From: Candidatus Lindowbacteria bacterium RIFCSPLOWO2_12_FULL_62_27
GTDB lineage: Bacteria > Lindowbacteria > 2-12-FULL-62-27
Reading direction: 5' to 3'
DNA: 64,000 nt
Assembly (NCBI GenBank): GCA_001784175.1
Contig: MFPR01000011.1
Location: 1-64,000 of the forward strand
A model generated the notes under the pieces. That model searched no databases. It was given only the letters and a program-made list of their open reading frames with translations, and was not told where the DNA came from. The position numbers and the translations under genes were made by a program. Below are positions 8,990 to 60,400 of the stretch, in pieces; the first letter of the stretch is position 1, and each line of letters begins with the position of its first letter.

Positions 8990-11900
8990 TTAACCTTCGT
9001 AATACAAGGACACAAACACGCGGCCGGGAGCCGAATCCAGGAACCGATCCCGGATCGTTCGACAGGCGGCCGCCCACCGGGCCATCTGGGATTGCAATAT
9101 CCTCGTGATCAGACACGCCGCCGGATAGTTGATGGCCGCGTCGTCGCCGCCTGAACTGCCGGAACTGCTCCCGTCCGAAATTTCAAACCCACCGGGATCC
9201 ACCACGACGCCGTTGGCAACACCGTCGAGGTCGCCGGTGCCGCCGTCGGTGAGGGTCAGGAACACCTCGCTGTCGCCGTCGTGGCTGGTCAGGCTGGAGG
9301 TCATGTCGAGCCAGCCGTTGGCGGCGTCGAAGATGAAATACTTGGCCGTGACCGGCACGCTCTCCGGCATGTCGAGCGAGATCGTGATCGTGCCGCCGAT
9401 CGCCACGCCTTCGCATGTGAACGCGATGAGGCCGAATTTGAAATTCGTCGAAGGCTTCTCGGCCCGGCCGGTGTCGGACACCTCGTCCTCGAACTTCACC
9501 CCACCCAGCGTCGTGAACTTTTCGTCGCCGCCATTTTTGAGTTTGAACCCGATGGGTCGCGTGTCGCGCGCGAAGGGATTCGTGTCGAGCCTCTTGGCCG
9601 CTGTTGGCGTGATCGCCAGCGTCTCCGTCGCCGTCGTGAAACTCCGGGTCGTCATCCACGCCGACCACCCGCCGCGCGCATCGCAGAACCGCGCGCGCCA
9701 GTAATGCTTTTGCGCGCCCCGGAGTAGCCCGCGCGGGAATTTGAACCGCAGCCCCGCCATCTCCGCCGGGATCACGACGTTCACGCGCATGTGCATGTTG
9801 TCGAAGATCGACGTGGAGTCCGCCGCCTGCCAGTGCGTGCATTTGTGGGTGTCGCCGTCGGCGTCCGAGTAGCCGGTGATCGTGATCTCACCGCTTGGCG
9901 CGAAACCCACCGCCGCATCTGCGGGGGATGAAGGACTTGGCGCGGACGGACTCGTATTGAGAGACGACACCGCCGTGACGGGTTCGCCGGCGACGGGAAG
10001 GCCCGCAAAGTTGAACGACGCGCCGCTGCTTGCCGTCGCCGTGATATCCGAGGCCGACGCCACCAACGCGACAAAGGTCTGTCCGGCCGTCGCCGTGCCG
10101 GCGAAACTGTACGTCACGACAAGATACATCGGCTTGTCCTTCGTGAGCGACACCGAAAGCCCGCTGAAGGTCACGCTCCCATTGTCCGCCGTGACCGTTC
10201 CACTGCTCCCAAGTTGCGTGTCACCGGTTCCGTTGCCGTCCCCGTCCTGCCAGAGCTTCACGCCGGACGCGGAGAGCGCCGTCACGTCGTTTCCTGAACC
10301 CCCGGCGGTAACCTTGATGGACGACAACGTCCCGTTGCTTTTCGGCCCAATCACGATCTGGATCACCGGCAAGTCGGAGACCGCGCCGAAAACCGATTGC
10401 GGCGGCGGATTCGACGCGCCACGCCGGATAAAGGCGAACGCGGCGTTGCCGGTGTCCGTCGTCAGTATCGAATCCGAGAACCAGGATTCATTCACAATCG
10501 GCCACGTGTCGAAGGACGTGAGGCGATAGTAATAATTGTTCCCGGCGGTCACGCTCGTGTCCGTCCACGTCGTGACCGTTGGTCCGACCTGCGCAACCCT
10601 CCCCGCCGCCCAGTCGGTCGTGTCCGTGCGGTTCACGATTCGATAAATTCGTATGCCGCCGAATCCGGTCAGGACGGTGTTTTCTTCGTCCGCGGCGGGG
10701 TTCGTCCAAGAGAGCACGGGTTGGCCACTCGTGTTTTTGGTGATTGAAATATTCTGTGGGGCTTTCGGTGCGACTGTGTCCGCTCCCGGTGTGGTATCGA
10801 CCAAGCCGAGGCGAAATGGTTTGAATGTGATTTTTTTCGTTGCCGACGTATCGGCGATCATCTTATCAATTCGTTGCTCGTCGGTTGTCCCCCACCAATT
10901 GCGACTAAAATCAAACGGTTTACCTGTGTTGATGAAGACGCCTGAATCAGGCCAATACAACGAAGTTCGGATATTGTTTTTTTGAAAGGTGTCCATGGAC
11001 GCGCTACCCCATATAAACGAGGGTAAACCTTGGGCCAATGTGAATTGGTACGCTGTGTTTGAGTCCATATCGTTTTGATAGAAAAAGCTGTTGTTCGCAT
11101 TTCCGATAGCAAATGCATCGCCGGGTACTGCTGTCGCTCCCAACCCTCCCCCCGTCCCAGTCTCAAGGCCGGGCCACCGCGTCGCCCTTATAAGATTATG
11201 GGCAATTATATTACTGTCACTGCCTCTTCCGATGTTGTAAACGCTGCTTGCGCCCACACAAATACCCGCTCCAAAATTTGACACAATAAAATTCTGCAAA
11301 ATTTTGTTGTCGGAACTTCCGGCGAGCCTGATACCACAGTTTTCATTGTATCGGGCCGTATTGCCACTGACAACATTGCCCGTGCAACCCTCCAGTGCGA
11401 TTCCATTATCCGCATAGTACTCCACAGTGTTGTTGGATATCAAATTATTGGAGGCCCCGGCGGCGGTGAGCACTATTCCAGAAAACGAGCTGCCCATTCC
11501 CTTTCCGGTCATCGTATTGTTGGTGATAGTATTCCACGAACTGTAAATAAGGATCGTCGATCCAGTGCAGACATTGTTGCTGATGAGATTGGAAGTCGAC
11601 ACCCCAGAAACCTCGATGCCTCCTTTGAATATGCTATCCGACGTGATGGTCGATTGCGTCACATTCCGAAAGTCAATCAGCCCCTCAAGCAGACCAATGT
11701 TTTTTATCAATAGACCCGTTTGGGAATCGGCGTATATTCCGGTCCCTGTTCCAGGGGGATCGATGACTGTCGTGGCAGAATCTTTACCTACGAGAGCGAC
11801 ATTGTCCGTATCGATTGCGACGGTTTCCGCATATAGACCAGCATCGACAAAAACAGTGTCCCCAGATTTCACAGTGGCCATTGCCTTTGCGATCGTCCTA

Positions 11901-12061
11901 AAAGGTGCGCTTGCGACACCGGCACTGCCGTCGTTGCCGACGGCGGTCGTGTAAGCGTCGCCTGCGGTTGAAGTGTCGTTGACGTACCAATTTGCGGCGT
12001 AGATTGCCTGACAAAGAAACAAGTGTGACACGAAACCCCAAACCAGCCTACGGGTGACCAT
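8990..12061 (-). CDS. Secreted parallel beta-helix surface protein with choice-of-anchor U-like domain
   Basis: 1023 residues with a signal peptide (about 1-22). Residues ~25-340 are a right-handed parallel beta-helix of the NosD/DUF1565 kind, rich in repeated N-x-I-S-x-N turns. Fibronectin-III-like modules follow (about 425-530 and 700-805). Near 930-990 comes a segment ending LTDGGTGDLDGVANGVVVD, typical of choice-of-anchor U domains. A Ser/Gly linker then leads to a ~40-residue tail, with Cys, then IRDRFLDSAPGRVFVSLYY. That tail resembles the Cys-containing tails often seen after such domains. It is probably outer-membrane attached or released and could be a substrate of the adjacent secretion system. 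The N-terminal half is visibly more AT-rich than its neighbours, which suggests transfer. Confidence 0.8.
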   Translation of the reverse strand: MVTRRLVWGFVSHLFLCQAIYAANWYVNDTSTAGDAYTTAVGNDGSAGVASAPFRTIAKAMATVKSGDTVFVDAGLYAETVAIDTDNVALVGKDSATTVIDPPGTGTGIYADSQTGLLIKNIGLLEGLIDFRNVTQSTITSDSIFKGGIEVSGVSTSNLISNNVCTGSTILIYSSWNTITNNTMTGKGMGSSFSGIVLTAAGASNNLISNNTVEYYADNGIALEGCTGNVVSGNTARYNENCGIRLAGSSDNKILQNFIVSNFGAGICVGASSVYNIGRGSDSNIIAHNLIRATRWPGLETGTGGGLGATAVPGDAFAIGNANNSFFYQNDMDSNTAYQFTLAQGLPSFIWGSASMDTFQKNNIRTSLYWPDSGVFINTGKPFDFSRNWWGTTDEQRIDKMIADTSATKKITFKPFRLGLVDTTPGADTVAPKAPQNISITKNTSGQPVLSWTNPAADEENTVLTGFGGIRIYRIVNRTDTTDWAAGRVAQVGPTVTTWTDTSVTAGNNYYYRLTSFDTWPIVNESWFSDSILTTDTGNAAFAFIRRGASNPPPQSVFGAVSDLPVIQIVIGPKSNGTLSSIKVTAGGSGNDVTALSASGVKLWQDGDGNGTGDTQLGSSGTVTADNGSVTFSGLSVSLTKDKPMYLVVTYSFAGTATAGQTFVALVASASDITATASSGASFNFAGLPVAGEPVTAVSSLNTSPSAPSPSSPADAAVGFAPSGEITITGYSDADGDTHKCTHWQAADSTSIFDNMHMRVNVVIPAEMAGLRFKFPRGLLRGAQKHYWRARFCDARGGWSAWMTTRSFTTATETLAITPTAAKRLDTNPFARDTRPIGFKLKNGGDEKFTTLGGVKFEDEVSDTGRAEKPSTNFKFGLIAFTCEGVAIGGTITISLDMPESVPVTAKYFIFDAANGWLDMTSSLTSHDGDSEVFLTLTDGGTGDLDGVANGVVVDPGGFEISDGSSSGSSGGDDAAINYPAACLITRILQSQMARWAAACRTIRDRFLDSAPGRVFVSLYYEG

Positions 12062-12557
12062 GTTTTCTGAAAAAGTCTCTCTGGTGTTCGTAATTCCTCG
12101 AATCCCGCGCGATGGCGGTGTATCGATCGAATTCGGCCTTGGTTATCCGATTGAGCGTTGGACGATAAACTCGAACAAGTCGTCCCGGTGGGATTCGAAT
12201 CACACTCCCGTTAGGCGGTCGGATTATCCATTTCATTCGTAACAACCTGCCGAAATCACCACCTGGCGTGGTCCCCAAAAGCGGATTCCAGTCGGTGTCT
12301 GTGTAACGGTAATACGACTCCCTTACCAGCCCAACGGCGCCGATTCGCCGGGCAAGAAGATAGGCGATGACGCCGTCGCCTTTCCTAATTTGTCTTGCGC
12401 AATTTTCGAAGGCTTTCCAAGCTTTGGGATGATTGACCTTATAATGCGACTTCGGCGGAAATCCACCAGCACAAACCAATTTCCTTCTACAAATATCCCA
12501 GAGATCATTCCATTCAGGCCTACGAATTGCAGGAATCTCGAATAGCCAGTGATTCAC
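12048..12557 (-). CDS. EVE-like domain protein
   Basis: 169 residues. The start is GTG at 12557, with a strong GGGAGGTGG ribosome-binding site just upstream, which decides the start. The central part (ARQIRKGDGVIAYLLARRI, then GAVGLVRESYY) follows the pattern of EVE/PUA-like modified-base or RNA-binding domains, and the rest is consistent with one compact domain. It overlaps the start of the beta-helix gene by 14 nt, so the two are co-transcribed. EVE domains are often linked to restriction and defence genes, and the toxin-antitoxin island begins on its other side. Assigned by pattern only; no methyltransferase or nuclease partner is present. Confidence 0.5.
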   Translation of the reverse strand: MNHWLFEIPAIRRPEWNDLWDICRRKLVCAGGFPPKSHYKVNHPKAWKAFENCARQIRKGDGVIAYLLARRIGAVGLVRESYYRYTDTDWNPLLGTTPGGDFGRLLRMKWIIRPPNGSVIRIPPGRLVRVYRPTLNRITKAEFDRYTAIARDSRNYEHQRDFFRKHGHP

Positions 12558-12603
12558 GCTCCACCTCCCGACAAAAAAGGGCAGGACGCCCAGAAACTTC
12601 GTC

Positions 12604-12710
12604 CTCGCCGGGAAGACTCAGACGGGTTTCCATTTCGGACGCCCCGCCCACGTGAGTAGGCAGAGCCGTCCCGTCTGAGTAACCTCGATATCCAATCGCT
12701 TCCCGGCGAG
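12604..12710. repeat. Nested inverted repeat at the left edge of the toxin-antitoxin island
   Basis: Outer arms CTCGCCGGGAAG (12604-12615) and its complement (12699-12710) enclose inner arms ACTCAGACGGG (12616-12626) and its complement (12670-12680). The left arms are contiguous; the right arms are split by 18 nt, giving one long bulged hairpin. It lies in the 341-bp gap between the EVE-like gene and the PIN gene. That gap otherwise holds only the first direct repeat. Confidence 0.7.
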
Positions 12711-12743
12711 TTTAGGCGCGGCCGAAGCCGCAACGTGTATATT

Positions 12744-12800
12744 TTCACAAATCCCCGGCCGAAACACAAGGCGAAACGGGATCGAGAAACCGGATTCCGG
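12744..12800 (+). repeat. Direct repeat of the toxin-antitoxin island, copy 1
   Basis: The conserved core runs 12744-12784 and includes ATCCCCGGCCGAAACACAAG, followed by GGCGAAACGGGATCG. A 3' extension, GAAACCGGATTCCGG, is shared with copy 4. It can fold into a small imperfect hairpin, ATCCC/GGGAT plus GCC/GGC. It precedes the PIN toxin gene. Confidence 0.8.
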
Positions 12801-12898
12801 CCGCGGCTTGCCGGATTGATGTTGTTGCGATACAATCAGACTGTGAATTTCCGGAATGTTGAGCGCCTCGTCGATCGGGAAAAAGATAGAGTTTGTAC

Positions 12899-13381
12899 AT
12901 GGCGATGAAACGGGTGTACATTGAGACGACGGTCGTGAGTTACCTCACGGCAAACCCGGCTCGGGATGTAATCGTCGCCGGGCATCAGGAGGCAACCCGT
13001 GAGCTTTGGCCGCGCCTTGCCGCCGGATACGAGGGCTACGTTTCCGCGCTTGTTTACCAGGAGGCGGGGAAGGGGGATCCGGAAAAGGCCGGATTGCGTG
13101 TTGAGGCCATCAGGTCATTCCGCATGCTGGACATTGATGCGGAGTGCCGGACACTCGCCGAAAAGATCATTGCCGGTAAGGGCATACCGGGAGAGTATCC
13201 GGAAGACGCGCTTCACATCGCCGTCGCGGCCGTCAACGGGATGGATGTCGTCATCACATGGAACTTTGCGCACTTAAACAATCCGTTGACCCGCATGGTG
13301 GTCAGGCGGATTGTCGAGAGCGCGGGATATGGGTGTCCGGAGCTGTGCTCACCGGAAGAACTGCTGGAGGCGGACAAATGA
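12899..13381 (+). CDS. PIN-domain (VapC-like) toxin
   Basis: 160 residues from ATG 12899. An in-frame TTG at 12893 and an ATG at 12905 are alternatives. The protein begins RVYIETTVVSYLTANP, with the first PIN acidic residue in IET. It continues with a mid-protein acidic region around VYQEAGKGD and the conserved EDALHIAVAAVNGMDVVITW followed by N-F-H, typical of VapC-type ribonucleases with a DxxH-like second half. Its stop overlaps the next gene by four bases (ATGA), the usual coupling of a type II toxin-antitoxin pair. The substrate is probably RNA; the target is unknown. Confidence 0.8.
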   Translation: MAMKRVYIETTVVSYLTANPARDVIVAGHQEATRELWPRLAAGYEGYVSALVYQEAGKGDPEKAGLRVEAIRSFRMLDIDAECRTLAEKIIAGKGIPGEYPEDALHIAVAAVNGMDVVITWNFAHLNNPLTRMVVRRIVESAGYGCPELCSPEELLEADK

Positions 13382-13566
13382 AAGATCCCATAGTGGAAGA
13401 GGTGCGAAAACACCGAATGGAACACACCCAAAAATTTTCGGGCGATCTTGCGGCCATATGCGCCGACCTGCGCTCTATTCAATCGGCATCGGGATTTCAG
13501 GTCGTCCGTCTCTCCCCGAGGAAAGCCGAGCCGGTTTTCACAGCAGAAAAAAAAGAAACCGCCTGA
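13378..13566 (+). CDS. Small partner of PIN toxin (putative antitoxin)
   Basis: 62 residues, ATG start overlapping the PIN stop. It begins MKDPIVEEVRKHRMEHTQKF and continues with a conserved-looking DLAAICADLRSIQ helix. Small proteins with this DPIVEEVRKHR opening commonly accompany PIN toxins in many genomes. It has no recognisable DNA-binding fold and lies downstream of the toxin, the reverse of the common order. An antitoxin role is inferred from coupling and size. The 234 bp after it contain only direct-repeat copy 2. Confidence 0.6.
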   Translation: MKDPIVEEVRKHRMEHTQKFSGDLAAICADLRSIQSASGFQVVRLSPRKAEPVFTAEKKETA

Positions 13567-13728
13567 TTTCAAAAAAAGGGCCGGTTCGAATTTAAGGTGA
13601 GGCGTGCGAACGGGCAGCGCGGTTTGCGGAAGGAAAAACGATTTTTTTAAGTTGAGGCGGGCGAAGGGATTGACTGCGATTTTTTGTCTGTTTATTTCGG
13701 AAGACGGCAACAGCCGCGGCCATCGGAT

Positions 13729-13769
13729 TTCACAAATCCCCGGCCGAAAGACAAGGCGAATCGGGATCG
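13729..13769 (+). repeat. Direct repeat of the toxin-antitoxin island, copy 2
   Basis: TTCACAAATCCCCGGCCGAA continues to CGGGATCG, with one change (AAAGAC for AAACAC) against copies 1, 3 and 4. It lies 32 nt before the HigB start, in the same orientation as the others. Confidence 0.8.
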
Positions 13770-13800
13770 TAAATCCACATTTGACAATACACCAAAACTG

Positions 13801-14169
13801 ATGTATATTTCCCCTGTGTACGCGGTCATTTACTACAGCACGGAACGCGGAGACCGGCCGGTCCTTGAGTTCCTGGACAACCTGGACAAAAAGTCCCGCG
13901 CGAAGGTCATGGCCCATATCGACCTGTTGGCTCAATACGGTCCCGATCTGAAACGGCCATACGCGGATCATGTCCGGAGGAAGATTCGGGAACTCCGGGT
14001 TCAGATGGGTTCAAAAAAATACCGGATTTTGCATTTCTTCTTTTTTGAAGGGCGAATCGTATTGCTCCATTCTCTGCTCAAGACAACGCCGAAGCTGAAG
14101 GAAAGCGATATCGCCTTGGCGGAAAGCCGGATGGCTGACTGGATCGCCAGACATCCGAGAGGAGGTTGA
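13801..14169 (+). CDS. HigB/RelE-type toxin (phage Gp49-like family)
   Basis: 122 residues from ATG 13801. The family pattern is clear: an N-terminal strand, then RPVLEFLDNLDKKSRAKVMAHIDLLA, a central KIRELRVQMGSKKYRILHFF strand pair, and IVLLHSLLKTTPKLKESDIALA, where the K-T-K residues typical of HigB ribonucleases stand. It is predicted to cleave mRNA on the ribosome. An XRE antitoxin starts 6 nt downstream, the usual higBA order. The frame is open upstream into repeat copy 2, but the ATG at 13801 gives the normal length. Confidence 0.85.
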   Translation: MYISPVYAVIYYSTERGDRPVLEFLDNLDKKSRAKVMAHIDLLAQYGPDLKRPYADHVRRKIRELRVQMGSKKYRILHFFFFEGRIVLLHSLLKTTPKLKESDIALAESRMADWIARHPRGG

Positions 14170-14175
14170 ATTGCG

Positions 14176-14472
14176 ATGAGAAAACCGAAGATCAGAACAT
14201 TTCAGGAACATCTCAAAAAGGAATTGAAAGATCCCGAATTCCGGAAACATTTTGAGGAAGAGCGCCGGGCGCTGGCGCTTGCCATGAAAATCGTCAAACT
14301 CCGGCAAAGACGAGGATTGACCCAGAAAGATTTGGCAAGGGCGATGCGAACGAGCCAGCAGGCGGTTTCCAGGATCGAAAGCGGGGAATACGAAGGCTTT
14401 ACTTTAAAAACGCTTGAAAAGATTGCCGAAGCAACCGGCTCACGTCTGAAGATCGACCTTTTGCCGGCGTAA
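14176..14472 (+). CDS. HigA-type XRE-family antitoxin
   Basis: 98 residues. A helix-turn-helix lies at about 46-92 (LRQRRGLTQKDLARAMRTSQ, then SRIESGEYEG), preceded by an N-terminal helix typical of antitoxins that pair with Gp49-like toxins. It should neutralise the upstream HigB and repress the operon. An AGAGGAGG ribosome-binding site overlaps the end of the toxin gene. Direct-repeat copy 3 begins on the base right after its stop codon. Confidence 0.87.
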   Translation: MRKPKIRTFQEHLKKELKDPEFRKHFEEERRALALAMKIVKLRQRRGLTQKDLARAMRTSQQAVSRIESGEYEGFTLKTLEKIAEATGSRLKIDLLPA

Positions 14473-14511
14473 CACAAATCCCCGGCCGAAACACAAGGCG
14501 ACACGGGATCG
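14473..14511 (+). repeat. Direct repeat of the toxin-antitoxin island, copy 3
   Basis: CACAAATCCCCGGCCGAAAC continues through ACAAGGCGACACGGGATCG and abuts the higA stop codon. It is followed by a purine-rich stretch with imperfect GGAGACAAGG-type tandem units (about 14520-14562). The region to 14651 holds no gene. Confidence 0.8.
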
Positions 14512-14651
14512 TGACAGGACTTGGAGACAAAGGGACAAGGAGACGAGGAGACTTGGGGAGGATGTCCGACGGCGCCGACCAACTCGCATCCGACCGCCGG
14601 CAGTTGCTGCCAAAGCTTGCTTCGCTCCGTTTTGTGCGGTAGCTTGTGGAC

Positions 14652-14897
14652 ATGAACATTCAAATTGATGAGGATACGGCTGGAAGTCTGAACCTGACCG
14701 AAGACCAACTGCGATTTGAGTTGGCGGTGGGGCTCTTCGTCGACAACAAGTTGAGCCTGGGCCGGGCCGCGCGCGTAGCCGGAATGGACAGCATCCAGTT
14801 TCAACGGGAGTTGGCCGCCCGGCGCATCCCATTGCATTACGGGGTCGAGGAATTCCGCCAGGATTTGAGGACCATTGAGAGTCTGTCTGCCCATTGA
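14652..14897 (+). CDS. UPF0175 family antitoxin
   Basis: 81 residues. It has the UPF0175 pattern: a short N-terminal strand, then LTEDQLRFELAVGLFVDNK, LSLGRAARVAGMD and FQRELAARRIPLHYG, a helix-turn-helix-like region. These proteins usually precede a DUF3368 PIN-like toxin. Here the stop (TGA) overlaps a TTG that opens the first ~18 residues of just such a toxin, which then breaks off. It is therefore an orphaned antitoxin. ATG 14652 is preferred over the in-frame GTG at 14646. Confidence 0.8.
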   Translation: MNIQIDEDTAGSLNLTEDQLRFELAVGLFVDNKLSLGRAARVAGMDSIQFQRELAARRIPLHYGVEEFRQDLRTIESLSAH

Positions 14898-14948
14898 TCG
14901 TCGTTAGCGACACGTCACCCTTAACCAATCTGCTCTCCATCGGCGCGG
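14894..14948 (+). pseudogene. DUF3368 PIN-like toxin, truncated after ~18 residues
   Basis: Starting at a TTG that overlaps the UPF0175 stop, the frame reads LIVVSDTSPLTNLLSIGA. This is the characteristic opening of DUF3368 toxins (VVSDTSP with the first catalytic Asp). After that the frame runs into a short tandem GTCAAGAGATGTGGGCC duplication and the 53-bp hairpin, and stops at 15055 with no further PIN motifs. The rest of the toxin gene is missing. The intact UPF0175 gene upstream supports the reading as a once complete module. Confidence 0.75.
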
Positions 14949-14980
14949 AGTCAAGAGATGTGGGCCGTCAAGAGATGTGG

Positions 14981-15033
14981 GCCGCTCTTGACTTTTTGAC
15001 TTTTTGCCACAAAGTCAAAAAGTCAAGAGCGGC
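14981..15033. repeat. 53-bp perfect hairpin element, copy 1
   Basis: Two perfect 23-nt arms (14981-15003 and 15011-15033) flank a 7-nt loop, TTGCCAC. The arm starts GCCGCTCTTGACTTTTTGAC. It is preceded by two tandem units of GTCAAGAGATGTGGGCC and followed by a CGGGCCCGGGCCCG palindrome. A copy differing only in the loop (TTGCCGC) lies at 15968-16020. Confidence 0.9.
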
Positions 15034-15078
15034 ACCGGGCCCGGGCCCGAGATAGACCACGGCCGGCGTAGGTCGGAG

Positions 15079-15135
15079 TTTCAAAATCCCCGGCCGAAAC
15101 ACAAGGCGGATCGGGATCGGGAAACCGGATTCCGG
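15079..15135 (+). repeat. Direct repeat of the toxin-antitoxin island, copy 4
   Basis: AAAATCCCCGGCCGAAACAC continues through AAGGCGGATCGGGATCG, plus the GAAACCGGATTCCGG extension also seen in copy 1. It lies 57 nt before the RelB-like start. Confidence 0.8.
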
Positions 15136-15192
15136 ACGATGTTCAGTGAAAACGCGCTTGCCAAATTCAGCGGAGGCGGGGATAATGGACCC

Positions 15193-15411
15193 ATGAAGAA
15201 CACACTGCAGGATTTAACGTCGTTGTCTGTTGCAGAGCGGATTCAACTCGTCGCCGATCTCTGGGACAGCATCGCCAGAACGCCCGCGAAGGTGCCGGTT
15301 CCGATGTGGCAGAAAAAGGAATTGGACAGGCGGAAGGCCCGATTCCTCAAGAATCCCGGCTCGGGAATGACATGGGAGCAATTCAAACGGTCCGTCAACG
15401 GCCGTAAATGA
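15193..15411 (+). CDS. RelB-like addiction-module antitoxin
   Basis: 72 residues from ATG 15193. The pattern LSVAERIQLVADLWDSIA, followed by a Lys/Arg-rich middle and GMTWEQFKRSV, is that of the small addiction-module antitoxins that pair with ParE/RelE toxins. The frame is open upstream through the hairpin, but those codons only translate the repeats. The stop overlaps the toxin start by four bases. It should bind and neutralise the downstream ParE. Confidence 0.8.
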   Translation: MKNTLQDLTSLSVAERIQLVADLWDSIARTPAKVPVPMWQKKELDRRKARFLKNPGSGMTWEQFKRSVNGRK

Positions 15412-15707
15412 TTCATGATCTGATTCTGTTGCCCGAAGCCTGTCAGGATATTCTCGACGCCGCAACGTGGTACGAGGGACAATCCGACGGACTGGGCACG
15501 GAATTCTTTCGTTGCATAGATGCCTGCGTCAATCTGATTCGCCGGCAACCGTTGATCTACGGGATTCTTCACCGAAATTTTCGACGAGCGCTTGTCCGAC
15601 GTTTTCCCTATGCTGTTTTCTTCGAAGTCGACCGCAACGCGGTCGTCATCTATTCCGTATTCCATTGTGCGCGGAATCCATCCGCATGGCGGAATAGAAT
15701 CCAATAA
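15408..15707 (+). CDS. ParE/RelE-family toxin
   Basis: 99 residues. It shows the ParE/RelE fold pattern: LLPEACQDILDAATWYEGQSDGLG, FFRCIDACVNLIRRQP, and the C-terminal strands RRALVRRFPYAVFFEV and VVIYSVFHCARNP. It is coupled to the RelB-like antitoxin by an ATGA overlap. The target may be gyrase or mRNA and cannot be read from sequence. About 120 bp downstream begins a fragment of lnt on the opposite strand. Confidence 0.85.
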   Translation: MIHDLILLPEACQDILDAATWYEGQSDGLGTEFFRCIDACVNLIRRQPLIYGILHRNFRRALVRRFPYAVFFEVDRNAVVIYSVFHCARNPSAWRNRIQ

Positions 15708-15825
15708 ACGACCGGCGGCCTCCGCTCGCCTCTCCGAGATAAAATAGATCGAAACCCGAACCCGCGCCTGGCGCTCCTGCGGGCGGATCGAGATACTTGC
15801 CTCGGTGGGTGAGTTGTAGTCCCGG

Positions 15826-15934
15826 TCAGCCGGGCCGTCCGGCCCGGAGAAGCACTGCGCCGAACAGGACGACCGTAACGGCGACGCAGAGGTACGGCAG
15901 GACCCATCCGAACCGGTGATAGATCGTCCGGTCC
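15826..15934 (-). pseudogene. Fragment of lnt (C-terminal end), duplicated
   Basis: Bases 15855-15934 match 17419-17498 inside lnt with two differences in 80. On the minus strand they encode DRTIYHRFGWVLPYLCVAVT, followed by VVLFGAVLLRAGRPG and a stop at 15826-15828. A second shared piece, TCGCCTCTCCGAGATAAAATA, sits at 15726-15746 and at 17398-17418. In the intact gene it directly adjoins the 80-mer; here the two are 108 bp apart. The fragment breaks off near the second hairpin element. A GC-rich palindrome (15830-15847) overlies its end. Confidence 0.8.
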
Positions 15935-15967
15935 GAAAAGAAAAAAAAGGGGGCCGCTCAAAAAGGG

Positions 15968-16020
15968 GCCGCTCTTGACTTTTTGACTTTTTGCCGCAAA
16001 GTCAAAAAGTCAAGAGCGGC
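15968..16020. repeat. 53-bp perfect hairpin element, copy 2
   Basis: Perfect 23-nt arms (15968-15990 and 15998-16020) flank loop TTGCCGC, otherwise identical to the copy at 14981-15033. It lies between the lnt fragment and the 5'-truncated DUF4258 gene. It is followed by two CGGCACCGGGCCGCG-like units. Confidence 0.9.
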
Positions 16021-16302
16021 ACCGGGCCGCGGCACCGGGCCGCGCATGCGGACGAAGAGGCGCGCGAAGACGGGCTGACACGCGAGGAAGTTTACGATTC
16101 GGTTATTCGCGGTGAAATCATAGAGGACTATGCGGACGACGAGCCTCATCCAAGCTGTTTGATCTATGGCACGATCAAGGGGAAGCCGGTTCACAGCGTT
16201 TGGTCATACAACGCGAAAAATAAATCCACCGTGCTGGTCACCGTTTATCGGCCTGACCCCAAACAGTGGATCAACTGGAAGGAAAGGAGAAAAGCGAAAT
16301 GA
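15991..16302 (+). CDS. DUF4258 protein, N-terminus replaced by hairpin element
   Basis: From about codon 18 the product follows the DUF4258 toxin-like pattern: HADEEAREDGLTREEVYDSV, then IRGEIIEDYADDEPHPSCLI, and a terminal VLVTVYRPDPKQW. The expected first strand before the conserved His is missing. Instead the frame runs back through the GC-rich repeats into the hairpin, whose loop supplies the only usable start (TTG 15991). The gene is therefore 5'-damaged and may be silent or make a chimeric N-terminus. Its stop overlaps the downstream zinc-finger gene (ATGA), as in intact DUF4258/YgiT pairs. Confidence 0.65.
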   Translation: MPQSQKVKSGTGPRHRAAHADEEAREDGLTREEVYDSVIRGEIIEDYADDEPHPSCLIYGTIKGKPVHSVWSYNAKNKSTVLVTVYRPDPKQWINWKERRKAK

Positions 16303-16544
16303 AACTTTTGGACAAGTGTCCGGTTTGCTCCGGCGAGATCGTAGAAAAAGGAGTTCGAAAACTTTTGGAGGGCGGCAGCAACCACACGGCAATCATGAAA
16401 GTCGCGGCCGAGGTCTGCCTGCACTGCGGCGAACGATTCTATTCCGATGCGACCGTCAAACGATTTGAAGAAATCCGGGCCAAACTGGAGCGGCAAGAAA
16501 CGGCGGGTCTTCAAAAAGTAGGACTGACCTTTCAGGTGGTTTGA
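16299..16544 (+). CDS. YgiT-type zinc-finger protein (MqsA-like N-terminal domain)
   Basis: 81 residues from ATG 16299, preceded by AAGGAGA. Two CxxC pairs are visible (CPVC near the N-terminus, CLHC in the middle), with the YgiT pattern VAAEVCLHCGERFYSDATVK. There is no XRE domain, so it is the short form that accompanies DUF4258 proteins and is thought to be the antitoxin. It is coupled to the upstream gene by a four-base overlap. The 302 bp that follow (16545-16846) contain no convincing intact gene, only a possible UPF0175 remnant. Confidence 0.8.
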   Translation: MKLLDKCPVCSGEIVEKGVRKLLEGGSNHTAIMKVAAEVCLHCGERFYSDATVKRFEEIRAKLERQETAGLQKVGLTFQVV

Positions 16545-16778
16545 TTCGCCCTGATCCTCTGTAAGATATAAGCTGCGGGACCCTGTGTCATTGTTCTACT
16601 TTGCTACTTTCGCCTGCCGTGAAACATTGTCACTGCGAATCATGAAACCGAATCCCGAACCCGCCGCCGGTCGCGGAGGCCGCCGGAACGGGGTGCGGCG
16701 GACGTTTTGCGGACGTTCCCGAATGGTGACCGAATTGCAACGCTTGAAATACTTTCGCCTATGCGGTAAGAATTACAC

Positions 16779-16850
16779 ATGAACGTGCGCATCGAAGGTG
16801 TTGAGATGGACCAATTAAATCTGAGCGAGTCCCAGCGTAGAGCGGTTTGA
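16779..16850 (+). pseudogene. Possible UPF0175 antitoxin remnant
   Basis: ATG 16779 opens a 23-codon frame, MNVRIEGVEMDQLNLSESQ and four more residues, ending in TGA. It resembles the first strand and LxLSEEQ segment of UPF0175. In the next frame the sequence reads ERFEL, matching the RFEL that should follow, so a one-base frameshift after codon 20 would explain the break. The rest of the gene is absent. The signal is short and could be chance. Confidence 0.35.
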
Positions 16851-17140
16851 ACTTGAAGATCGCAGAAATAATCTGGAAGGAGAAATTTGTCGAGAAACTG
16901 GAGGTTCTGCACCCTGTTTCGACGGACGAGGTCGAAGAGATCATTTGCGGAACGGAGAAATTCTTTCGGATGAAAAGGGGCAAGGTCAAAGGCGAGGATG
17001 TATATCGGGCCGGAGGGCAAACGGAGGACGGTCGGTTCCTGACGGTATTCTTCATTTACAAGAAACGACGGAACGCCGCGTTGCCGATCAGCGCGCGGGA
17101 AATGGACGACAAAGAAAGGAGACGATACAAACGTGAATAA
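16847..17140 (+). CDS. BrnT-family toxin
   Basis: 97 residues if TTG 16847 is the start; no ATG or GTG is available near the N-terminus. It shows the BrnT/DUF497 pattern: an N-terminal W with V-EKLE, KVKGEDVYRAGGQTEDGRFL, VFFIYKKR, and the terminal ISAREMDDKERRRYKRE, with the conserved Ser-Ala-Arg and Glu-Arg-Tyr. It is predicted to be a RelE-fold ribonuclease. The stop lies within the 5' end of a CopG antitoxin gene. The TTG start and the antitoxin remnant just upstream suggest that the original 5' end has been disturbed. Confidence 0.75.
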   Translation: MNLKIAEIIWKEKFVEKLEVLHPVSTDEVEEIICGTEKFFRMKRGKVKGEDVYRAGGQTEDGRFLTVFFIYKKRRNAALPISAREMDDKERRRYKRE

Positions 17141-17393
17141 AGTCAAAAAGCTTCCGGACGAGTTCGGCGGTGACGAGGCGGCAGGGAAGTTCTGGGACAC
17201 TCACTCATCCGCCGATTACGAGGATGAAATGACGGAAGTCGAGATGGAAGTCGACATCCGCAGGCGGACGTTTCTTGTCCCGGTCTCGGATCGGATATAT
17301 CGGATAGCCAAAAAGCGGGCCGCGGCCAAACGGTGTTCCGTTCAAGCGATTATCAATACTCTCCTGCGCCGGGATCTGGTTCAAGCAAGGTAA
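17133..17393 (+). CDS. BrnA/CopG-type antitoxin
   Basis: 86 residues, GTG start overlapping the BrnT gene by 8 nt. The N-terminal FWDTHSSADYEDEM line is the hallmark of CopG-type antitoxins that pair with BrnT. A ribbon-helix-helix follows (VPVSDRIYRIAKKRAAAKRC, then AIINTLLRRDL). It should repress the operon and bind the toxin. Its last 13 bases overlap the 3' end of lnt on the opposite strand, so the module is wedged directly against that gene. Confidence 0.82.
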   Translation: MNKVKKLPDEFGGDEAAGKFWDTHSSADYEDEMTEVEMEVDIRRRTFLVPVSDRIYRIAKKRAAAKRCSVQAIINTLLRRDLVQAR

Positions 17394-18799
17394 CCTTTCG
17401 CCTCTCCGAGATAAAATACTGCGCCGAACAGGGCGACCGTAACGGCGACGCAGAGGTACGGCAGGACCCACCCGAACCGGTGATAGATCGTCCGGTCCTT
17501 GCGGGCGGCAATCGTTGCGGTCAGGACGCCCTCCTTATTCAGCGCCAGAGACGCCACACGCCGCCCGGCCGGATCGATCGCTTCCGACGGCCCTGATGAG
17601 GACGCGCGGACGATCCAGCGGCGCGATTCGACCGCGCGGAACGACAGGAGCGCCGCGTGCTGCAGGCGTTCGACGTTTCCCCATTCCGCCGGATCGTAGG
17701 ACGGAACGAGGAAAAATTCGGCGCCGAGACCGGTCAGGCGTCGGGACAGGTCGGTGAAGTTTTCGTCGAAACATATCTGAACGCCCGCGACCCCGTGCGT
17801 CGTCGGAAACACTTCGCGGGCCGGCCGGCGCGCGAATCCTCCTCCGAAAAATGTTTTCTCCATCAGCGGCACGAGATGAACTTTGGTGTGCCGTCCGAGA
17901 TATTTTCCTTCCGGGTCGAAGACGAGCGCGCAATCTTCGGGGTTCTGCCGCGCCATCGGCGAGGACCCCACGATCGCGCCGGCGATCAGATGCGTATTCC
18001 AGCGGCGGGCGAGTCCGGCGAGGGGGTCCAGCGCGGCTGTGTCCAGCGCCGGAATGGACATGGCGCCTTCCGGCCAGATCAGAAAGTCGCGCCGTTCGGC
18101 TGCGGCTTGCTCGGAGAGTTGGTATAGCCGGCCGGACGCGTAGTCCTCGTGTTGGACCGCCGCCACGCGGATGTCGCCGGGTGCGACCTCGGGCGTCAGC
18201 GTCCGGCCGCCCGCGTAGAGGGCGATGGCCATGATCAGCGCGGCCAGACCTGCCGCCCAGGACCCGCCAAGCGCGGCCGCGAGCAGGCCGTTGACAAGGA
18301 CCACGATGAAACTCAGCCCGTACACTCCGATGATGCTTGCCCACTGGAGCACGGCCGGCGTGGAGTGAAAGGCCGACCCGGGCGTGAGCCACGTGAATTC
18401 GAACCACCAGAGTTCCGACCGGAAAAACTCGAGCCCGACCCAGACCGCCGCGGCAGCCACCGCGCGCGGGAGACGCGGCCACGACGCTGTCGAGAAATAC
18501 CAGAGCGCGAACAGCGCGGGCCACAGCGCCAGAAGGACCCACAGGGACACCGCCGCGGGGCCGAACAATCGCGTGAGCCAGAAAAGGCTCAACACGCAGA
18601 GGACGAGTCCCGCCGTCAGGCCCAAATAAAACGCCGTGCGCGCGGAGCCCGCGCGCTGAGCTGCCCACAGGAGGGGCAGGAGCGCAATCCAGATGAGAAT
18701 AGATATGGATCGCGGTGGGAGCGCCAGATGAAGGAGAACCCCTGTACAGACTGCGGCCGCGAATCCTGTCAACGCCGACATCTGAGAGGAGCGAATCAT
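17381..18799 (-). CDS. lnt: Apolipoprotein N-acyltransferase (copy 1)
   Basis: 472 residues. Several N-terminal membrane helices (residues ~1-195) are followed by a nitrilase-type domain with the catalytic triad visible: E244 in WPEGAMS, K306 in HTKVHLVP and C343 in QICFDENF. A final membrane helix is near 448-468. It would add the third acyl chain to lipoproteins in the inner membrane. The last residues (FYLGEAKGYLA) differ from the end encoded by the duplicated fragment at 15826-15934. The C-terminus was therefore probably remodelled when the toxin-antitoxin segment arrived. A second lnt lies at 54169. Confidence 0.88.
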   Translation of the reverse strand: MIRSSQMSALTGFAAAVCTGVLLHLALPPRSISILIWIALLPLLWAAQRAGSARTAFYLGLTAGLVLCVLSLFWLTRLFGPAAVSLWVLLALWPALFALWYFSTASWPRLPRAVAAAAVWVGLEFFRSELWWFEFTWLTPGSAFHSTPAVLQWASIIGVYGLSFIVVLVNGLLAAALGGSWAAGLAALIMAIALYAGGRTLTPEVAPGDIRVAAVQHEDYASGRLYQLSEQAAAERRDFLIWPEGAMSIPALDTAALDPLAGLARRWNTHLIAGAIVGSSPMARQNPEDCALVFDPEGKYLGRHTKVHLVPLMEKTFFGGGFARRPAREVFPTTHGVAGVQICFDENFTDLSRRLTGLGAEFFLVPSYDPAEWGNVERLQHAALLSFRAVESRRWIVRASSSGPSEAIDPAGRRVASLALNKEGVLTATIAARKDRTIYHRFGWVLPYLCVAVTVALFGAVFYLGEAKGYLA

Positions 18800-57426: not shown

Positions 57427-60400
57427 ATGTCTCCGACCAGCGGGATCCAAAAACTTCTGGTTGCCAACCGGGGCGAGATCGCCATCCGGATTTTCCGCGC
57501 GGTCAATGAGTTGGGCATCCGGACCGTCGCGATTTATTCCCATGAAGACCGGCTGAGCCAGCACCGCCAGAAGGCCGACGAGGCCTATCTGGTCGGGCGC
57601 GGCAAAGAACCGGTGAAGGCATACCTCGACATCGAGGACATTCTTCGGATTGCCAAAGAGTGCGGGGCCCAGGCGATCCATCCGGGATACGGGTTTTTGT
57701 CCGAGAACGCGGATTTCGCGAGCGCCGTCCAGGACGCCGGATTGATCTTTGTCGGGCCGCCTCCGCCGGTCCTCCGGCAGATGGGGGATAAAACAGCGGC
57801 GCGGAAAGCCGCTCTGAGTGTCGGCATTCCGGTCATTCCGGGGACCGCCCGGTCGACGTTGTCCGTGAAAGTCGCCCGGCAGGAATCCCGGCGGATCGGA
57901 TTTCCGCTGATGCTCAAGGCGGCCTTTGGCGGCGGCGGCCGGGGCATGCGCGTGGTGCGGAGCGCGGCCGATCTCGATGGGGCATTCAAAGAAGCATCGC
58001 GAGAGGCCGCCTCCGCTTTCTGGAACGGCCATCTCTTCATGGAACGGCTCGTGGAAAACGCCAAACACATCGAGGTCCAGATCCTGGCGGACAAGAAGGG
58101 CGCCTGCGTTCATTTGTACGATCGGGACTGCTCCGTCCAGCGCCGGCACCAGAAGATGGTCGAAATCGCGCCGTCGCTCACTCTGCCGACGAAGCTTCGC
58201 GAGGAACTTTGCGAGGCCGCCGTCCGGCTGGCGAAAGAGGTCGGATACGAGAACGCCGGAACGGTTGAGTTTCTCGTGGAGCATGGTCCAAGGCAGGGCG
58301 CCCGCAAGGAGCGCCCCTACTATTTTATTGAAATGAATCCACGGCTCCAGGTCGAACACACGGTCACCGAAATGGTCACCGGCATCGACATTGTGGCGTC
58401 CCAAATCCAGATCGCCGCCGGCCAACGGCTGGCCGATCTGGGCATTGCCGATCAGTCGGTCGTATCGACTCGAGGGGTAGCCATCCAGTGCCGGATCACC
58501 ACCGAGGATCCCTACAACAATTTCATTCCGGACCACGGCCGGCTGACGGTCTACCGGTCGGCCGCCGGGTTTGGTATCCGGCTGGACGGCGGCAACGCAT
58601 TTACGGGAGCCGTGGTTGCGCCCTACTACGATTCGCTTCTGGTCAAGGTGACCGCGCTGGCGCCGACGTTTCCGCTGACGGTCGCGAAGATGTCGCGGGC
58701 GCTGGCTGAATTCCGGGTCCGGGGCGTTCGGACCAACATTCCGTTTCTGCTGAACCTTCTGGCCCATCCGAAATTCCGGTCCGCCGATTTTGCAACGACC
58801 TTTATCGAGGAATCTCCGGAACTGTTCAAGTTCGTTCCGTTCCGCGACCGCGCCAACAAAATCCTGAGATGCATCGCCGATGTCATCGTCAACGGAAATC
58901 CCACGGTCCAGGGCGCTCCGAAACCTCCGAAACTGATCCAGCCGTACCTGCCGCCAATCCCTCCCATCGATCCGCCGGAAGGGATGCGGCAGAGATGGAA
59001 ACAAATGGGCTCGGACGCGTTTTGCGATTGGATCCGGCGGCAGAAAAGATTGCTGATCACGGACACCTCATTCCGCGACGCCCACCAGTCGCTCCTGGCC
59101 ACGCGGATTCGGACCTTTGACATGCTTCGGATCGCGCCGGTCTATGCGCGAACGTCGGCCGGGCTGTTTTCGATCGAGATGTGGGGCGGGGCGACGTTCG
59201 ATGTGGCCATGAGATTTTTGAATGAGGATCCTTGGGAACGGCTCGCGAGCCTTCGGCAGGCCATTCCGAATATTCTGTTTCAGATGCTCCTTCGCGGGGC
59301 CAACGCGGTCGGCTACACCGCCTATCCGGACAATGTGGTCAAAGCGTTTATCCGGCAGTCGGTTGTGTCGGGCATCGATGTTTTCCGGATCTTTGATTCG
59401 CTGAACAATGTTTCCCAGATGCGCAAAGCCATCGCCGCGGTCCGGGCCGCCGGCGGCCTGGCCGAAGGCGCGCTGTGCTACACGGGCGATATCGACGATC
59501 CGTCCCGGCCCAAGTTTGATCTCCGGTACTATGTCCGCATGGCCAAGGAGCTGGAGAAAACCGGCGCGCAAATTCTCGGGATCAAGGACATGTCGGGTCT
59601 CCTCAAACCTTATGCCGCCCAGCGGCTCGTGCGGGCGCTTCGGGAATCTGTTGACCTTCCGATTCATTTTCACACGCACGACACGAACGGCCTGCAAGCG
59701 GCGGCGATCCTCAAAGCCGCCGACGCAGGCGTCCATATCGCCGACGCCGCCGTCGCGTCGCTGTCGGGCCTCACCAGTCAGCCCAACCTGAATTCGATCG
59801 TGGCGTCGCTCCGGCGGCAGACGCGGGATACCGGCCTTTCACTCAATGATCTGAACGACATTTCACAGTACTGGGAGGATGTCCGAACGTATTATTCTCC
59901 TTTTGAGTCGGGCCTTCAGTCGGGCACGGCCGAAGTCTACGAGCACGAAATTCCCGGCGGCCAGTATTCGAACCTGCGGCCACAGGCCGAAGCCATGGGC
60001 CTGGGCGGGCGCATACGGGAACTCAAAAAAATGTACGCGGTGGTGAACCGGATGTTCGGAGACATCGTCAAGGTGACGCCCAGCTCCAAAGTCGTCGGCG
60101 ACATGGCCTGTTTCATGCTGGCCAACAACCTCACGGAAAAAGACGTCCACGACCGGGGCCGGGACATGGCCTTCCCGGAGTCGGTGGTCGGATTCTTCCG
60201 CGGGGAACTCGGCCGGCCCACCGGCGGATTTCCGCCGAAGCTGAGAGACATCATTCTGAAGGGCGCGGATTCCCGCCGAAGCTCACGGGTGCCGCCGGCG
60301 AATTTTACGAAGACGAAGGCCGACGTGGAAAAGAAAGTGCGGCGGCGCATCCGGGACGAGGAACTCATGTCCTATTTCATGTATCCGAAAATTTTTCTGG

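Follow-up and report, generated by a model that had tools for sequence, protein, structure and literature searches.

A 36-bp repeat that separates toxin-antitoxin (TA) modules in a 64,000-nucleotide stretch of a Lindowbacteria genome (the window) coincides at its first copy with the predicted promoter of a neighboring leftward operon, headed by a candidate structured leader RNA that we call E. The explanation we favor, with moderate confidence, is a turnover of TA modules behind E promoters, together with recombination that copied a segment of one such promoter as modules piled up at this site. If so, the locus shows at the level of sequence how a TA island can grow, by turnover behind a fixed promoter with the joints marked by promoter fragments. 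The leader RNA, which covaries strongly and is absent from Rfam, also provides eight loci for tests of function in a sparsely sampled family.

Repeat-led toxin-antitoxin modules

The core of the repeat, AAATCCCCGGCCGAAASACAAGGCGNNNCGGGATCG, occurs four times on the plus strand (Table 1), where shuffled sequences lead one to expect none, and among the four copies its 36 columns vary only at column 17 (in one copy) and in the triplet at columns 26 to 28. Copy 4 also shares its right flank, GAAACCGGATTCCGG, with copy 1. The preliminary description had placed one module after each of four same-strand copies, with a copy abutting the higA stop codon, and this arrangement holds: the modules are unrelated by ORF family, all read on the plus strand, and copy 3 directly follows the TAA at 14470-14472. 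The cassette-like layout is genuine, with the repeat linked to TA modules. When the genome (4.39 Mb in 44 contigs, about 94% complete) was searched at up to three mismatches, these four copies in one island and on one strand were all that was returned, and the repeat is not scattered over random intergenic sites. Exact copies were absent from GTDB genomes and from IMG/VR, copies with up to three mismatches were absent from 97 related genomes, and plasmid and phage records had no similarity to the TA island.

Adjacent genes of the PIN, Gp49/HTH, UPF0175, ParE, and DUF4258/YgiT families identify the modules as type II TA systems; the BrnT and CopG matches are weak, and two small partner ORFs, among them the 62-aa ORF at 13378-13566, match no family. 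The presumed partner of UPF0175 is truncated near a REP-type palindrome (14979-15046). This short ORF had been described as a broken DUF3368, an assignment that Pfam does not support, although its N terminus is DUF3368-like by eye. The extent of the island also needed revision, as the four repeat-led modules stood but the island extends as far as 17393 and includes two further TA modules not preceded by the repeat. Its GC content is lower than that of the surroundings, ten other small ORFs in the window had no TA match, and PADLOC gave only weak matches, mostly driven by HTH domains. Like other type II TA islands, this one clusters PIN, HigBA, ParE, DUF4258/MqsA-type, and BrnT-like modules on one strand at lower GC; unlike them, it has four modules separated by what appear to be promoter segments of the neighboring operon.

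Table 1. Features of the TA island and its neighborhood, with the positions of E elsewhere (window coordinates unless a contig is given)
Feature	Position	Strand	Remarks
NosD/beta-helix protein	8990-12061		After the 169-aa ORF; NosD, E 9e-15
ORF led by E	12048-12557	-	169 aa, no Pfam family
Candidate structured leader RNA E	12565-12716	-	5' of leftward ORF; covariance model match, 142 bits
Small hairpin GCGGC-n-GCCGC	12718-12731	-	Near predicted transcript start; at most E loci, bases changed
Predicted E-operon promoter	12741-12769	-	-35 TTGTGT (12764-12769), 17 nt, -10 GAAAAT (12741-12746), TGT extension
Repeat copy 1	12749-12784	+	Overlaps predicted E promoter
TA module 1	12893-13566	+	PIN toxin 12893-13381 (PF01850, E 1.2e-5) and 62-aa ORF 13378-13566
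Repeat copy 2	13734-13769	+	Without intact -10 on the E-sense strand
Promoter-like site, module 2	13781-13809	+	TTGACA-17-TATATT directly right of copy 2; read from sequence
TA module 2	13801-14472	+	HigB from 13801 or 13816 to 14169 (Gp49, PF05973, E 2e-22)
HigA of module 2	14176-14472	+	HTH_3, E 2e-13; stop TAA 14470-14472
Repeat copy 3	14476-14511	+	Adjoins higA stop codon
TA module 3	14646-14897	+	UPF0175 (PF03683, E 1.5e-19)
Repeat copy 4	15084-15119	+	
TA module 4	15195-15707	+	70-aa ORF 15195-15411 and ParE toxin 15408-15707 (PF05016, E 6.7e-7)
TA modules 5 and 6	16009-17393	+	DUF4258 and YgiT/MqsA-type; BrnT-like and CopG-like; no repeat before them
Other E loci, this genome (G000)	C28:114808-114955, C28:369283-369429, C28:93718-93868, C26:180080-180244		
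E loci, G001	C254:1086-1227, C3:3281-3429, C124:1211-1386		

A covariance model built from the four copies found one more, a diverged copy 5 at C28:114729-114782, which stands before a PIN gene. Its similarity to the window continues leftwards for about 190 bp past the repeat, towards E (75% over 231 bp). A diverged whole repeat also lies at the corresponding E-promoter place on contig C3 of G001, a genome of another genus in the same family (L109:3457-3513; weak on its own, with an E value of 0.03). The recurrence beside variable modules anticipated by the preliminary description is partly seen: at a second locus and in the sister genus a diverged repeat adjoins TA genes, and orthologous sites differ in TA content. 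Weak model matches at C111 and C68 of G001 fell inside coding genes and were discarded, and HigB-family loci in the three genomes of the family yielded no further repeat. The array copies are near-identical among themselves, whereas the C28 copy differs from them by about 25%, which makes it likelier that the array copies arose here than that they were collected from other E loci.

A candidate leader RNA in two genera

The block next to the repeat has a strong predicted fold (z, -5.7) and is found, besides the window and the copy-5 locus, a third time at C28:369288. From these three copies of E, a covariance model recovered a further five, of which two lie in the genome of the window and three in G001. 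In the resulting eight-row alignment, 96.4% of cells are paired and 25 of 43 pairs carry two-sided changes, counts that are inflated by fitting the alignment to the model, although the outer stems covary among the first three copies already. No shuffle attains these values, and slid structures reach 37 to 51% paired cells with 0 to 6 two-sided pairs. Covariation backs a conserved secondary structure for E as predicted from these sequences.

The terminal end of E in the window has a GGGC..GCCC hairpin (12579-12591) and a U-run (12573-12578), and at the clearer loci a ribosome-binding site and an ORF come right after the U-run. The genes that lie 3' of E vary from ORFans before large secreted proteins to a response regulator operon and two proteins of no known family that are 70% identical. 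We rejected the idea that E is a DNA site for recombination, since its terminator and G-U pairs agree with an RNA of the minus strand, and attC boxes are missing from its ends. Among 386 genomes searched, two carry E; its pattern was absent from IMG/VR, and the lone GTDB match, in Jonesia, was judged to be chance. E is a candidate for a new family of structured leader RNAs restricted to two genera within a single bacterial family. It resembles riboswitch-like leaders in its covarying structure, in the terminator-like hairpin and U-run before a ribosome-binding site, and in its varied downstream genes, and it may control the gene that follows through a ligand or other signal. Unlike described leaders of this kind, it occurs in two genera only, has no known ligand, and gave no Rfam match either in the window or at the E loci.

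Predicted promoter segments and proposed module turnover

Each of the eight E loci has a predicted sigma70-like promoter ending 23 to 28 nt before E, in which a TTG hexamer and a -10-like hexamer stand 17 nt apart, with a TGN extension of the -10 in seven of the eight; per locus, a fraction of 0.002 to 0.034 of shuffles (0.2 to 3.4%) equaled the promoter score. By sequence and by place, copy 1 coincides with the predicted promoter of the leftward E operon, and it may well be active as one. In copies 2 to 4, the -35 and the spacer are preserved together with the segment upstream of them, and these copies appear, from their identity with copy 1, to be related to the E promoter. E itself is missing beside them. 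As they lack an intact -10, they probably do not function as promoters.

Five of the eight E loci have a TA or TA-like module on their promoter side. This module is a PIN gene at the window's own locus (C11) and at one of the C28 loci (C28a); at a second C28 locus (C28b), it is a small ORF with a CopG-like ORF (weak; Pfam E 0.055). In G001, a DUF4258 gene and then another ORF lie behind the E promoter of C3, and C254 has an ORF that is AbrB-like by eye together with a PIN gene, in the opposite orientation. Two pairs of these loci are orthologous, C28a and G001:C3 through their secreted proteins (82% across 676 aa), and C28b and G001:C254 through the response regulator and its neighbor (58% and 54%). 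The TA module differs within both pairs, and the small ORF after E is also unlike between C28a and G001:C3.

In the mechanism that we propose, copy 1 as a promoter would drive E, followed by the ribosome-binding site, the small ORF, and the large secreted protein, and gain and loss of TA modules would take place directly upstream of promoters of this kind. At C11, modules would have accumulated rather than replacing one another, each step leaving the promoter-upstream segment between modules. The simplest route would be recombination between related strains whose modules behind that promoter differ, joining these modules in a row; the recombination steps and the manner of copying are inferred. 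Against this explanation, the core is sharply conserved beside flanks that have diverged, and its changes are concentrated in one triplet, which could mean selection on the core.

Other readings of the repeat and side observations

Selection on the core is the substance of a second, unlikely reading, in which every copy would bind a single regulator that governs the TA modules as well as the E operon. Nearly all changes among the four copies fall in one 3-nt stretch, as in a spacer that a protein does not contact, and this concentration suggests some constraint on the core and makes an operator role possible. However, the sample is small at four copies, the core lies at widely varying distances from the TA promoters, and the core has diverged by about a quarter at C28.

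It is more doubtful still that an undescribed site-specific capture system uses the core for recombination, with TA circles inserted by a recombinase acting in trans. Unrelated modules are separated by direct repeats that all lie on one strand, module 2 is tightly bounded by copies 2 and 3 (the latter 3 bp past the stop codon), and the genome holds 14 tyrosine recombinase matches. None of these is on this contig, however, and when ten of the 14 were scanned for integron integrase (TIGR02249), the best scored 188 against a cutoff of 265. On either strand of 12501-17500, there was no RYYYAAC...GTTRRRY pair 30 to 200 nt apart, and the best match of any copy to Escherichia coli dif was 12 to 13 of 28 positions, equal to shuffles. 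The repeat was also considered as an attC-like hairpin and rejected, as the hairpin has no covariation and is broken in copy 5. The genome has no second array, and the promoter position already explains copy 1. The integron reading does not hold, and the recombination-site role that the preliminary description proposed for the repeat is left without support. An equally improbable variant makes the upstream segment of the E promoter a docking site, at which a recombinase in trans inserts TA modules singly and duplicates the segment each time; were this true, a promoter would serve as an attachment site and captured modules would be kept beside an operon with a structured RNA at its head.

Known modular arrays match the island in part. 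Integron and CALIN arrays likewise hold small modules of one orientation between repeats, with no integrase nearby in CALIN (PMC9892861); unlike them, the island has neither attC boxes nor an integrase, its repeat precedes the modules, and copy 1 is a predicted promoter segment. With the dif modules of Acinetobacter (PMC13141974), the island shares discrete modules, often TA systems such as higBA, and short repeated bounding sites. The pdif sites of those modules are 28 bp and alternate between C/D and D/C (PMC13141974), whereas the island copies are all direct and contain no XerC/XerD 11-6-11 site.

A REP- or MITE-like element, as also raised in the preliminary description, is very improbable: a weak ATCCC/GGGAT hairpin can form in each of the four copies and genuine REP-type elements are present in the same island, but the hairpin lacks covariation support and fails in copy 5, this genome's true REP has another sequence, which lies on either side of a transposase-like ORF, and in place of many scattered palindromic copies there are four close ones in 4.39 Mb, on one strand of one island, with one diverged copy elsewhere.

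Several other observations concern recombinases and duplications. In both genera, one orthologous E locus has a tyrosine recombinase about 2 kb upstream of E; recombinases at C26 (L107 10057-11046) and G001:C124 (L110 3180-4148) were considered as shared partners and set aside, being only 24% alike. On C12, two XerC-like tyrosine recombinases (59315-59827 and 68608-69123; L019 and L020) are 63% identical to each other and lie about 9 kb apart. REP-type palindromes of 55 nt occur at 14979-15046 and 15966-16033; the genome has this palindrome at about ten places, and on C1 a TnpA_REP-like ORF (L057:10329-11270) lies between two inverse copies. The minus-strand gene at 17381-18799 is apolipoprotein N-acyltransferase-like, judging from matches in other genomes and by eye, and its 3' end is duplicated at 15854-15934 (98% over 81 nt; see also 15726-15746 and 17398-17498). 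These 3'-end duplicates bound the last two TA modules (DUF4258/MqsA-type and BrnT-like), the left copy having about 108 bp extra. Together, the REP-type palindromes and the duplicated gene end indicate that more than one kind of duplication shaped the island.
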